From NCBI RefSeq assembly GCF_003569805.1, contig NZ_KZ984051.1, positions 1,499,889-1,563,888 on the forward strand: a stretch of DNA of 64,000 nucleotides, given 5' to 3'. This document shows positions 15,728 to 20,925 of the stretch, piece after piece. The notes beneath the pieces are model-generated. The model searched no databases. It saw only the letters and a list, made by a program, of their open reading frames with translations, and had not been told where the DNA came from. Origin of the DNA: Microbacterium halotolerans (GTDB taxonomy: Bacteria > Actinomycetota > Actinomycetes > Actinomycetales > Microbacteriaceae). The number at the start of each line of letters is the position of its first letter. Within the stretch, counting starts at the first letter, position 1. Position numbers and translations under genes: made by a program.

Positions 15728-17131
15728 CTACAGTGCGCCTGTCGAGCGCCAGCCGCCCTGGTAGGTTTCGCGGGCGACCGCGGCGTAGGGGACGGGACTG
15801 ACGATTGCACGCACCTTCAGCTGCTGGTGCGGTTCGACCGTGGTCTTCTCGCTGCCGCCGTCGGGCTCGCCCCAGACCACCGTGACCTCGGCGCCCTCCG
15901 GCACCTCGCGGTCGACGGTCGCCAGCGACAAGCCGCGCTTCTCGTTCGCGGTGACGCCCGTGAACAGCGACAGGCCGATGTCGGTGCCGTCGGCGTCGAG
16001 CACGGCGTCGAAATTGCTGGAGCCGTAGTTCGCGTTCGGCAGGTCGAAGAACTGGTAGCCGTCGCCGTCGCGGTCGAGCACCGTGGTGAGAGCCTTCGAC
16101 AGGTCCTCGTCGTTCCACGCCAGCGTCACCTTGCGGCGCTGCTTCTCCGGCTCGACCTTCTCCAGGGCGTCGCGGCCGATGAAATCGTGGTCGAACTTCA
16201 CGAACGACCCGTAGCCGAGCTCCCACGGGTTGAGGTAGTAGTCCTCGATGTTGTCCGAGACGAAGGAGCCTGCGACGGCGTTGATCGCCTCGTAGCTGTT
16301 CGTCGGCAGCCACTCGCGGTAGGCGCGCTCGGCCTCGCTCGAGTAGATCGCAGGCAGCGGCGAGGGGATCCATCCGGACTCGAGCGTGTTCGACGAGTAC
16401 GCGCGCGAACCGCACGGCTCGATGCCGAACTCCGCACCGGCGGAGAGGATCGCGTTGCGGATCTTCTCGTGCTGCTCGTACGGGCCCCACAGCTCCAGCC
16501 CAGGCGCGCCGGCCATGCCATGGCGGAGTGTGCGCACCTGCACGCCCGCGACCTCGAGGTAGCCCATGTGGAAGAACTTGACCTTCTCGAGCGTGCCGCC
16601 GTTGAGCTTCTCGATGATCGACCACGCGGCAGGGCCCTGGACCTGGAAGCGGTAGTACTCGCGCGTCACGGCGTGCCCGTACGGGCGTGAGGGGGACCGG
16701 TCGTCATAGCGCCACTCGACGTCGTACCCGCCGGTCTCGGCGTGGAACTGCAGCCAGTTCGCGCCAGGCGCGCGGCCGACGTATACGTACTCACCCTGCG
16801 ACTCATGGAACAGGATGCCGTCGCCGATGACACCGCCGTTCGACGCGGTGGGCACGAACTGCTTCGCCGTGTTCACAGGGAAGTTCGCGAAGCTGTTGAT
16901 GCCGGTGTCGCTGAGCAGCTTCAGCGCGTCGGGGCCCTTCACGAAGAAGTTCACCATGTGGTGCGTCTGGTCGTAGAGCACAGCCGTGTTCCGCCACGCC
17001 TTCTGCTCGCGGCGCCAGTTCGAGAACTCGGTCGGCACGACCGGGTAGATGTAGGTGCCCAGCTTCGAGTTGCGCAGCAGCTCGACTGTGCTGCCCGACT
17101 CGTCGAGCAGTTCCTGCAGGTTGTTGGCCAT
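15728..17131 (-). CDS. ligM: Tetrahydrofolate-dependent aromatic O-demethylase (LigM type, GcvT family)
   Basis: Transfers the methyl group of a methoxylated aromatic acid (vanillate, 3-O-methylgallate or similar) to tetrahydrofolate. The 467-residue length fits LigM (about 470) and exceeds ordinary GcvT. The start at 17131 (MANNLQELLDESG) fits the family better than the longer open frame. Folate-binding GcvT-like blocks include YDQTHHMVNFFVKGPDALKLL, LRHGMAGAPGLELWGPYEQ and the C-terminal GLSLFTGVTANEKRGLSLAT. It is divergent from galB-galC-galD homologues and an extradiol dioxygenase, which supports an aromatic role. Exact substrate unknown. Confidence 0.82.
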   Translation of the reverse strand: MANNLQELLDESGSTVELLRNSKLGTYIYPVVPTEFSNWRREQKAWRNTAVLYDQTHHMVNFFVKGPDALKLLSDTGINSFANFPVNTAKQFVPTASNGGVIGDGILFHESQGEYVYVGRAPGANWLQFHAETGGYDVEWRYDDRSPSRPYGHAVTREYYRFQVQGPAAWSIIEKLNGGTLEKVKFFHMGYLEVAGVQVRTLRHGMAGAPGLELWGPYEQHEKIRNAILSAGAEFGIEPCGSRAYSSNTLESGWIPSPLPAIYSSEAERAYREWLPTNSYEAINAVAGSFVSDNIEDYYLNPWELGYGSFVKFDHDFIGRDALEKVEPEKQRRKVTLAWNDEDLSKALTTVLDRDGDGYQFFDLPNANYGSSNFDAVLDADGTDIGLSLFTGVTANEKRGLSLATVDREVPEGAEVTVVWGEPDGGSEKTTVEPHQQLKVRAIVSPVPYAAVARETYQGGWRSTGAL

Positions 17132-17228
17132 CGTGGCTCCTTCGACCGTGAGTGACGTCCTCGTCTGATCTTCCCCGTGAGACGGCCCGCGGGGAACCCG
17201 GATGTCTCCTGACGGAAGACCCGGATGA

Positions 17229-17274
17229 GAGATACCCATGTTCATAGGTATCTCGTAACCAGAATTGTAGACAA
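17229..17274. promoter_or_regulatory. Operator candidates in the ligM/galB divergent region
   Basis: The 225-nt gap holds a perfect inverted repeat with 8-bp arms (GAGATACC at 17229-17236, GGTATCTC at 17247-17254, 10-nt spacer). Shortly after it, TTGTAGACAA at 17265-17274 has TTGT/ACAA arms like operators of the FadR/VanR branch of GntR regulators. No regulator gene is adjacent, so the protein is unknown. Confidence 0.45.
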
Positions 17275-17356
17275 AATGTTGATCATTTCGCCAGGGGGTG
17301 ATTCACTGTTTCTGCGCGCCGACCATCACGATGCGCGCAGAACGGAGAGCTCTTCC

Positions 17357-18816: not shown

Positions 18817-19913
18817 GCGGCATCCCGTGCATCCAGATGCGGGGAGGCACGTCCAAGGGGGCGTACTTCCTGGCCTCGGATCTGCCGGCCGACGCCGCCG
18901 AACGCGACGAGCTGCTGCTGCGCATCATGGGCACACCGGATGAACGGCAGATCGACGGCATCGGCGGCGCGCACCCGCTCACCTCGAAGGTCGCGGTCAT
19001 CTCGCCGAGCGACGGAGCCGACACCGATGTCGACTACCTGTTCCTGCAGACCGGCGTCGACGAGGTGTTCGTCTCCGACCGGCAGAACTGCGGCAACATC
19101 ATCGCGGGAGTAGGTCCGTTCGCCGTCGAGCGCGGGCTCGTGGCGGCGACGGCCGGCCTGACGCGAGTGCGCATCCGAATGCTGAACACGGGGAGCGTCT
19201 CGACGGCCACCTTCCGCACCGAGGTCGACGCGTTCGGCGCGGTCTCGGTCGACTATGACGGCGACCAGGCGATCGACGGCGTGCCGGGAACGGCGGGTGC
19301 GATCGCGCTCGACTTCGAGGGCACGGCAGGCTCGACCGCCGGAGCGCTGTTCCCGACCGGGAGCGTCAGCGACGAGATCGATTCCGTCGCCGTCACCTGC
19401 GTCGACAACGGCATGCCGTCGGTGCTGCTGCGGTCGCAGGACCTCGGCATCGATCCGGATGCCGCGCCCGCAGATCTCGAAGCGGACGCCGCCCTCATCG
19501 AGAGATTGGAGCGCATCCGGATCTCCGCAGCCGACCGGATGGGACTGGGCGACGTCGCGCGGGCCACGATCCCGAAGGTGGTCGCCATCGCCGCTCCGCG
19601 CGGTGGGACCGGTATGACGACGCGCACCTTCCTGCCGCAGGGCGGCGACGGCTTCCGCGTGCACACCTCCGTCGGTGTGCTCGGCGCACTCACCGCGGCC
19701 GCGGGCGCCGTGGCGCCCGGCTCCGTCGGTGAGGGCGTGATCGTGCCGCCGGCAGAAGGCGGCGCGTTCGTCGTCGAGCACCCCACGGGGCGCTTCGAAG
19801 TCGAAGTCGACGTCGCCGAACGGGGCGGCACGTTAGACGTGACGCGGTCCGTCGCCATCCGGACTGCCCGCAAGCTGTTCGAGGGAACCGTGTTCCCCCG
19901 CCCGCGACTGTGA
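18813..19913 (+). CDS. galD: PrpF-family isomerase, probable 4-oxalomesaconate tautomerase (GalD type)
   Basis: Predicted to interconvert keto and enol forms of 4-oxalomesaconate. The protein is 366 residues (GalD about 361), starting MSGIPCIQMRGGTSKGAYFLASDLP, the PrpF/GalD signature. DGIGGAHPLTSKVAVISPS and the QNCGNIIAGVGPFAVERGL block with its Cys are also conserved. The start at 18813 overlaps the galC stop by 4 nt; the longer open frame upstream lies within galC. The ring-cleavage enzyme gene follows after 61 nt. Confidence 0.85.
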   Translation: MSGIPCIQMRGGTSKGAYFLASDLPADAAERDELLLRIMGTPDERQIDGIGGAHPLTSKVAVISPSDGADTDVDYLFLQTGVDEVFVSDRQNCGNIIAGVGPFAVERGLVAATAGLTRVRIRMLNTGSVSTATFRTEVDAFGAVSVDYDGDQAIDGVPGTAGAIALDFEGTAGSTAGALFPTGSVSDEIDSVAVTCVDNGMPSVLLRSQDLGIDPDAAPADLEADAALIERLERIRISAADRMGLGDVARATIPKVVAIAAPRGGTGMTTRTFLPQGGDGFRVHTSVGVLGALTAAAGAVAPGSVGEGVIVPPAEGGAFVVEHPTGRFEVEVDVAERGGTLDVTRSVAIRTARKLFEGTVFPRPRL

Positions 19914-19974
19914 TCCACCCGAGCGCGCCCCGAACATCCGGGGTATCACCCAGCACCTGTCAGAGAGGACAACG

Positions 19975-20925
19975 ATGACCGACTACACATCGTTCGACAT
20001 CGCACACCTGGCGAACGTCGAGCTGTACACGCCGAAGTACGACGAGAGCCTATTCTTCTTCCGCGACCTGCTCGCGATGAGAGTCGTCGCCGAAGACGGC
20101 GACTCGGTGTACCTGCGCACGTGGGACGAATACGAGCTGTACACGATCAAGCTCACGAAGAAGGACGCCGCCGGCGTCGGTCGCACGTCACTGCGCGCAT
20201 CGAGCCGGGAAGCGCTGGAGCGGCGCGTGAAGGAGATCGAAGCAACGGGCCTCGGGATCGGCTGGGTCGACGGCGAGGTCGGAACGGGCAAGACATACCT
20301 GTTCAACGACCCGGACGGTCACGAGCTCGGGATCTACTACGAGACCGAGCGCTACGTCGCGAGTGACGAGGACCGGCCCGCGCTGAAGAACCAGGCATCG
20401 AAGTTCCCCGGCATCGGAGTGAACGCGCGCCGTCTCGACCACATCAACTTCCTGGGCAAGGACGTCGAGGCCAACGGCGAGTTCATGCGCGATGCCCTCG
20501 GCATGCGCGAGAGCGAGCGCATCAGGCTCAACAACGGAAAGTTCGCCGCCTGGTGGTTCCACTTCGGGCTGAAGTCGTATGACATGGTCTACAGCGATGA
20601 CTGGACCAAGCACGGCAATCGTCTGCACCACATCGCTTTCGCACCCGACACGCGCGAGGACATCCTGAAGGCCGCCGACATCTTCCTCGAGAACGGCATC
20701 CACATCGAGTCGGGCCCCCACAAGCACGCGATCAATCAGACCTTCTTCCTGTACGTGTGGGAGCCGGGCGGCAACCGCATCGAGTTCGCGAACGCCGGCG
20801 CACGCCTGCTGCTCGACCCGGATCAGCCGGTGGTCGAGTGGACGGAGGAGGAGCGCAAGAAGGGCCAGGCCTGGGGTATGAAGACGATCGAGACCTTCCA
20901 CACCCACGGCACCCCGATCGTGTGA
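19975..20925 (+). CDS. VOC-family (type I) extradiol ring-cleavage dioxygenase, His-to-Tyr variant
   Basis: Two-domain vicinal-oxygen-chelate protein, 316 residues, of the catechol 2,3-dioxygenase/homoprotocatechuate dioxygenase type. The metal triad is visible in the second domain: H156 (RLDHINFL), H219 (RLHHIAFAP) and E270 (GGNRIEFAN). H251 and Y260 match second-sphere residues. The normally invariant acid/base His of the HDxA motif is replaced: the equivalent reads SYDMVY (Tyr202). AGAGAGGAC precedes the start. It ends the galBCD transcription unit, so it probably opens a (methyl)gallate- or protocatechuate-like ring. A hairpin follows at 20934. Confidence 0.82.
   Translation: MTDYTSFDIAHLANVELYTPKYDESLFFFRDLLAMRVVAEDGDSVYLRTWDEYELYTIKLTKKDAAGVGRTSLRASSREALERRVKEIEATGLGIGWVDGEVGTGKTYLFNDPDGHELGIYYETERYVASDEDRPALKNQASKFPGIGVNARRLDHINFLGKDVEANGEFMRDALGMRESERIRLNNGKFAAWWFHFGLKSYDMVYSDDWTKHGNRLHHIAFAPDTREDILKAADIFLENGIHIESGPHKHAINQTFFLYVWEPGGNRIEFANAGARLLLDPDQPVVEWTEEERKKGQAWGMKTIETFHTHGTPIV

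Follow-up and report, generated by a model that had tools for sequence, protein, structure and literature searches.

The gal cluster of Pseudomonas putida KT2440 reportedly comprises GalA, GalB, GalC and GalD. Its ring opener GalA belongs to the type II extradiol dioxygenases of the LigB superfamily, in which AromaDeg places gallate and methylgallate dioxygenases (PMC4250580; papers are cited here by PubMed Central number, and what is said of each refers to the excerpts available). In Sphingobium SYK-6, which employs DesA, LigM, DesB and LigU-J-K, LigM converts 3-O-methylgallate to gallate, and DesB and LigAB convert gallate to 4-oxalomesaconate (PMC6888825). Direct conversion of gallate to 4-oxalomesaconate has been tracked by nuclear magnetic resonance for the actinobacterial PcaA of Pseudarthrobacter phenanthrenivorans Sphe3, a single-subunit type II enzyme with protocatechuate as its preferred substrate and 44% of that activity on gallate (PMC8431788). 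Here, we describe a compact five-gene unit within a 64,000-nucleotide stretch of the Microbacterium halotolerans genome (contig NZ_KZ984051.1, positions 1,499,889 to 1,563,888; henceforth the window), in which a type I extradiol dioxygenase of the VOC family is the predicted gallate ring opener. The unit resembles the KT2440 cluster in its GalB-type (PIG-L) hydratase, GalC aldolase and GalD tautomerase, and differs from it by a VOC gene instead of GalA and by an additional LigM gene. The LigM step and the predicted passage of gallate through 4-oxalomesaconate are shared with SYK-6, whereas the openers there are DesB, DesZ and LigAB and the ligM, desA and desB genes are scattered (PMC6888825). 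With PcaA, the predicted opener would have in common an actinobacterial host and the conversion of gallate to 4-oxalomesaconate. The parts are of known kinds, and the new element would be a type I opener in a gal pathway with a tyrosine at the position of the usual histidine.

The unit occupies positions 15728-20925 of the window and consists of five open genes, with the LigM-type gene on the minus strand facing galB, galC, galD and the VOC gene on the plus strand:

15728-17131, minus strand: gene for a LigM-type tetrahydrofolate-dependent vanillate/3-O-methylgallate O-demethylase, 467 residues (NF047885; PDB 5x1i)
17132-17356, no strand: divergent promoter region common to ligM and galB, a gap of 225 bases (from the sequence)
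17357-18112, plus strand: galB, gene for a PIG-L-type 4-oxalomesaconate hydratase, 251 residues (PF02585; PDB 5cgz)
18109-18816, plus strand: galC, gene for a 4-carboxy-4-hydroxy-2-oxoadipate (CHA) aldolase, 235 residues (NF006731; PDB 3noj)
18813-19913, plus strand: galD, gene for a 4-oxalomesaconate tautomerase, 366 residues (NF033377; PDB 6p3j)
19975-20925, plus strand: gene for a type I (VOC) extradiol dioxygenase, 316 residues, predicted gallate ring opener

The start of ligM was set at 17131, and a longer frame reaching 17245 was not adopted. LigM scores 895.5 bits against NCBIfam NF047885 (cut-off 580), its best solved relative being PDB 5x1i (722 bits, E 2.6e-216), and GalC passes NF006731 with 310.4 bits (cut-off 179; PDB 3noj, 232 bits). 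GalD passes NF033377 with 441.6 bits (cut-off 440) and matches the oxalomesaconate delta-isomerase PDB 6p3j with 339 bits. GalB carries a PF02585 domain and matches four family models, none of them for 4-oxalomesaconate hydratase; its best solved relative is the 4-oxalomesaconate hydratase PDB 5cgz (264 bits over residues 8-249). By these family matches, the gal lower pathway set of 4-oxalomesaconate tautomerase, hydratase and CHA aldolase is present. Because galC overlaps galB and galD by 4 bases each (ATGA) and the VOC start codon ATG lies 61 nt downstream of galD, the four genes on the plus strand appear to share a single transcript. The original prediction of a LigM-like gene facing galB-galC-galD homologues is thus borne out in placement and family assignment, and so is its claim that a VOC protein is the sole dioxygenase of the unit, since a domain scan found no LigB or LigA domain in any of the five proteins.

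The unit likely serves the breakdown of lignin-type aromatic acids. In the route that we propose, LigM would transfer the methyl group of 3-O-methylgallate, and also that of vanillate, to tetrahydrofolate; the VOC enzyme, in place of GalA or DesB, would cleave the resulting gallate beside its 4,5-diol to give 4-oxalomesaconate directly; and GalD would tautomerise, GalB hydrate and GalC split the product, leading to pyruvate and oxaloacetate. We put the probability of this route at roughly 0.7, judging from family membership and gene context. Since the opening of gallate gives 4-oxalomesaconate directly, an opener together with GalD, GalB and GalC would make a complete unit. Gallate needs no semialdehyde dehydrogenase or pyrone hydrolase and the unit encodes neither, so the VOC protein is most simply read as a gallate 4,5-dioxygenase. 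The enzyme activities in this scheme are predictions; gene content and arrangement, linkage across phyla, many carriers without a LigB match and an exchange of tyrosine for histidine are observations.

These omissions also bear on protocatechuate 4,5-cleavage, in which vanillate would be demethylated to protocatechuate and the VOC enzyme would open the latter. LigM does demethylate vanillate (PMC6888825), and the steps past 4-oxalomesaconate are common to both pathways. The protocatechuate route, however, needs the 4-carboxy-2-hydroxymuconate-6-semialdehyde dehydrogenase LigC and the 2-pyrone-4,6-dicarboxylate hydrolase LigI (PMC6888825), neither of which is among the five unit genes, the rest of the genome not having been searched for them. 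The genome also encodes PcaGH above equivalog cut-offs (PcaH 342.2 bits, cut-off 296.4; PcaG 154.1 bits, cut-off 126.25), to which protocatechuate derived from vanillate would pass. We rejected protocatechuate 4,5-cleavage as the purpose of the unit on account of PcaGH and of the lack of LigC and LigI in the unit, and regard it as extremely unlikely.

To place the predicted gallate opener among its relatives, we used two partly overlapping samples that are not to be summed: 80 related loci, taken from 91 that were found when named genomes were searched with the VOC protein, and an order-wide draw of 297 genomes. In the first sample, the fetched DNA of 62 of the 80 loci contains galD, in arrangements that differ in gene order and come from two phyla; a gene of LigM or DesA-like type is present in 57. 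The most frequent order is GalB-C-D-VOC (39 loci), followed by the Rhizobiaceae-type VOC-GalB-C-D (13), GalC-GalD-VOC (4), GalD-VOC (3), GalD-B-C-VOC (2, Microvirga) and GalC-GalD-VOC-LigJ (1), with VOC alone in 18. The order-wide draw contains 16 genomes with a GalD of at least 272 bits (next best 198) and 16 with a VOC protein of at least 331 bits (next best 164). Strong copies of both occur in 14 genomes, less than 2 kb apart in every one, and the two strong-GalD genomes that lack the VOC subfamily (G210, G254) each carry a LigB gene scoring about 300 bits. With galD in 62 of 80 VOC loci and 14 of 16 strong GalD genes so close to a VOC gene, we rejected the notion of the VOC gene as a chance neighbour. 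Tetrahydrofolate one-carbon genes (methylenetetrahydrofolate reductase (MTHFR)-like and/or PurU) lie near the VOC gene in Arthrobacter, Sinomonas (Micrococcaceae), Neorhizobium-type/Rhizobiaceae-type and Nitratireductor loci; the Sinomonas locus L031 has the order DesA-like, MTHFR-like, PurU, VOC and no gal genes. In one locus from a metagenome-assembled genome (L011, about 554-1955), the LigM match is split in two pieces by a frameshift or an assembly error.

A type II opener was sought with PF02900 at E 0.001 in 79 carrier genomes, searched in batches of 39 and 40. No match was found in 31 genomes of the first batch and 9 of the second; the remaining 39 carriers, as well as 4 of 14 control genomes, were positive. 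Among the 40 carriers without a match, galD belongs to the VOC locus in 36 (33 from Actinomycetota and 3 from Pseudomonadota, namely L054, L056 and L080), and in these a type II enzyme would not be available unless it was missed, some of the assemblies being drafts or metagenome-derived. The 14 linked genomes of the order-wide draw include six in which PF02900 has no match (G069, G139, G196, G205, G222, G272).

The genome of the window (99.42% complete) has a single PF02900 match (63.4 bits, C1:737617-738336), about 780 kb from the unit. We considered this gene as a hidden GalA and rejected it: the 340-residue protein reaches 57 bits against the gallate dioxygenase model NF009904, far below the cut-off of 412, and PF02900 has no match in the genome of the nearest VOC relative (L052, 96% identity) or in the near relatives G069 and G205. 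PF07746 (LigA) likewise has no match in the genome of the window, yet it has none in the control genomes either and is unusable as evidence of absence. The absence of LigAB/GalA that had been claimed from the window therefore stands for the unit and not in full for the genome, which holds this one remote LigB-family gene. With VOC-galBCD-LigM linkage in two phyla and 36 of 79 carriers keeping galD without a LigB-family match, ring opening by an unrelated fold, as the original prediction had it, is the best-supported reading.

The VOC protein itself contains two VOC stretches and solely VOC-type domains, with a predicted two-domain VOC fold in place of the LigB-superfamily fold of the type II gallate dioxygenases GalA and DesB. 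Against TIGR03211, the catechol 2,3-dioxygenase equivalog, it scores 307.7 bits, below the cut-off of 320.2. The putative metal ligands H156, H219 and E270 (2-His-1-carboxylate) are present in all 90 subfamily members aligned and in all 8 comparators. All 90 subfamily members have Tyr202, at a position that holds a histidine in 8 of 8 comparators and also in AphC and the Diaphorobacter enzymes. We take this histidine to be the second-sphere active-site residue corresponding to His199 of catechol 2,3-dioxygenase and His200 of homoprotocatechuate 2,3-dioxygenase. A tyrosine there is perhaps suited to a trihydroxylated ring. K200 was rejected as a residue specific to the subfamily, since 5 of the 8 comparators share it. 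A close homologue has been solved as PDB 9wgj (372 bits over almost the full length), which bears the depositor's name 'Catechol 1,2-dioxygenase' and carries the tyrosine of the VOC subfamily. A text search of the open-access literature for the code returned no paper on this structure, the matches being unrelated by title, and it is absent from the match lists of our fold library, which ends April 2026. AphC (Rhodococcus RHA1 type, PDB 7q2a/3lm4; 223 bits, 38% identity) shares the two-domain fold and aligned metal-ligand residues, but keeps the histidine where the subfamily has Tyr202. Turning to the literature, no type I (VOC) gallate or 3-O-methylgallate dioxygenase was found among the open-access matches listed, judged by titles and abstract openings; subscription papers lie mostly outside this scope, so that such an enzyme may still have been published. 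The excerpts of PMC8091115, PMC9867520, PMC12997858, PMC12481942 and PMC7814577 mention no gallate opener of type I, and a Bacillus type I enzyme is described as inactive on protocatechuate in a paper whose available text lacks the words gallate and gallic (PMC8671467).

A further pointer to the VOC product comes from loci in which the hydratase differs. Six (L143, L144, L145, L147, L150, L151) have no GalB match and carry an LigJ-type amidohydrolase in the fetched stretch while retaining the VOC gene; the L144 copy scores 466-500 bits against 4-oxalomesaconate hydratases (500 bits for 2gwg). L038 also has LigJ and was discarded as a case of this swap: its contig starts just before galC, which makes the absence of GalB uninformative. 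Two unrelated enzymes that hydrate one and the same compound thus accompany a single VOC subfamily, which points to 4-oxalomesaconate as the intermediate that the VOC enzyme would feed.

A number of observations weigh against a VOC gallate opener. Three of the 14 linked genomes have PF02900 matches of 63-120 bits (G000, G014, G201) and five have LigB at 235 bits or more (G028, G145, G148, G173, G243); in G148, a LigB gene of 235 bits lies in one stretch with galC, galD, VOC and ligJ (L145, G148:C68:1-16000). Each of the nine Microvirga genomes with a match in the GalD search given below has a LigB gene (about 200 bits) 2.6-4.4 kb from GalD; in G302, 17 kb of one contig separate the VOC gene from galD. 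In Chromohalobacter, galBCD sits with LigB and the VOC gene is on another contig. As noted, 18 of the 80 VOC loci lack galD in the fetched DNA. A GalD search at E 1e-20 in 20 genomes whose loci miss one or more gal genes gave a match in 16, with the L034 and L036 copies inside the locus itself; L031 and L039 have only matches below 150 bits, and the 4 genomes without a match are all Microvirga. G135 and G177 carry a strong VOC protein and no GalD match. Some subfamily members may accordingly act on a different substrate or divide the task with a type II enzyme, and Tyr202 could itself be a sign of other chemistry. In addition, the GalD of the unit exceeds the NF033377 cut-off by less than 2 bits, the related loci are not independent, and several of the genomes are drafts or metagenome-assembled. 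Lastly, the LigB-family gene of the window's own genome lies in a neighbourhood of aromatic type, with a second LigM gene (69% identity) about 14 kb away, so that its product probably has some role in aromatic metabolism and is not to be dismissed outright. The locus around it (L140, C1:733000-752999) holds genes for an ATP-binding cassette (ABC) transporter, a flavin adenine dinucleotide-type aromatic-ring hydroxylase, an RraA-like protein, an amidohydrolase, an ADP-forming-type acyl-coenzyme A (CoA) ligase, a hydroxycinnamoyl-CoA hydratase, an aldehyde dehydrogenase, a PadR regulator and the second LigM, and resembles a side-chain route for ferulate/sinapate, next to a putative type II dioxygenase. 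The L145 cluster mentioned above, for its part, unites an LigB-type and a Tyr-type VOC enzyme.

On such grounds, the VOC enzyme might be a mere neighbour that cleaves another catechol, for example an alkylcatechol, with a LigB-family enzyme elsewhere making 4-oxalomesaconate. In keeping with this, the closest solved fold, AphC, was solved with 4-ethylcatechol, the genome does hold one LigB-family gene, and several relatives have the VOC gene without galD or LigB beside galD. The 36 carriers that combine VOC and galD without a LigB-family match, together with a linkage repeated in several gene orders and two phyla, speak against it and make it very unlikely in our estimate. As a general account, we consider it fairly probable, if a shade less so than the route proposed for the unit itself, that a second, unrelated gallate 4,5-dioxygenase evolved from the VOC family with a tyrosine for the second-sphere catalytic histidine, that it displaced GalA/DesB in gallate/syringate breakdown across Actinomycetota and Rhizobiales, and that its partner is one or the other of two unrelated 4-oxalomesaconate hydratases.

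The promoter region lies between the demethylase gene and the gal genes. In 36 of the 80 related loci, ligM and galB are divergent and less than 800 bases apart, and two operator-like sites lie in the window's copy of this region:

17232-17251, no strand: operator-like inverted repeat ATACC-N10-GGTAT, no mismatch in the window
17265-17274, no strand: operator-like site TTGTAGACAA; TTGTNNACAA recurs in the intergenic regions of relatives

TTGTAGACAA resembles operators of the GntR/FCD type. The motif TTGTNNACAA, whose window copy is at 17265, occurs in 20 of the 36 ligM-galB intergenic regions (20 sites in 7,088 bases) versus 10 sites in the other 678,524 bases of the loci; a relaxed form of it is still absent from 7 of the 36, five of them in Arthrobacter and two in Microbacterium loci. 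Allowing up to two mismatches, ATACC-N10-GGTAT is found in 14 of the 36 regions (14 sites in 7,088 bases) versus 27 in 679,287 bases elsewhere in the loci; the relatives behind both counts are not independent. Through these two conserved sites, the two divergent transcripts would be controlled jointly. The sole other exact ATTGTAGACAA in the genome (C1:1393580-1393590; L164/L172) lies in the divergent promoter of genes for a GntR/FCD regulator and an SBP_bac_3 ABC transporter. This GntR/FCD protein is a candidate regulator of the unit; its gene adjoins the ABC transporter operon, which may be its target rather than the unit.

The shared promoter also helps to judge an inverted order of steps, in which the VOC enzyme would open 3-O-methylgallate before demethylation, an outside hydrolase would convert the resulting methyl ester to 4-oxalomesaconate, and LigM would be there for vanillate. 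Pseudomonas NGC7 offers a precedent, with MgaAB cleaving 3-O-methylgallate and MgaC hydrolysing the product (PMC12314914), and LigM is active on vanillate and 3-O-methylgallate alike (PMC6888825). The five unit genes include no such hydrolase, however, the rest of the genome not having been searched for one, and ligM faces galB across conserved promoter sites in the 36 loci, so that we regard this order as unlikely and prefer demethylation ahead of ring opening.

As for syringate, no certain O-demethylase was identified with the DesA model among the scanned LigM paralogs of the genome and DesA-like copies of relatives: 587 bits for the paralog at C1:1493087, 493 bits for that at C2:573416 and 484-586 bits for four copies from relatives all fall short of the cut-off of 800. 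By eye, the DesA/LigM-like gene near C1:1493087 (L141:10085-11449) adjoins branched-chain-type ABC transporter, CoA ligase, LysR and IclR genes. Downstream of the unit, inspection by eye of positions 21012-26986 of the window indicated riboflavin-type genes and a xylose-isomerase-like gene; because these come next, the unit seems to end at 20925.

If the proposed activity is true, two unrelated solutions would exist for the committing step by which syringyl units from lignin enter central metabolism. A survey that included Pseudomonas NGC7 scored the ring-opening step by LigAB, MgaAB, DesB, DesZ and GalA (PMC12314914), and surveys seeking only these enzymes would overlook gallate/syringate degraders. 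A gallate-active type I enzyme without the usual second-sphere histidine would also offer a test of oxygen activation in type I enzymes and, for lignin conversion in Gram-positive hosts, would supply a part that consists of a single gene.

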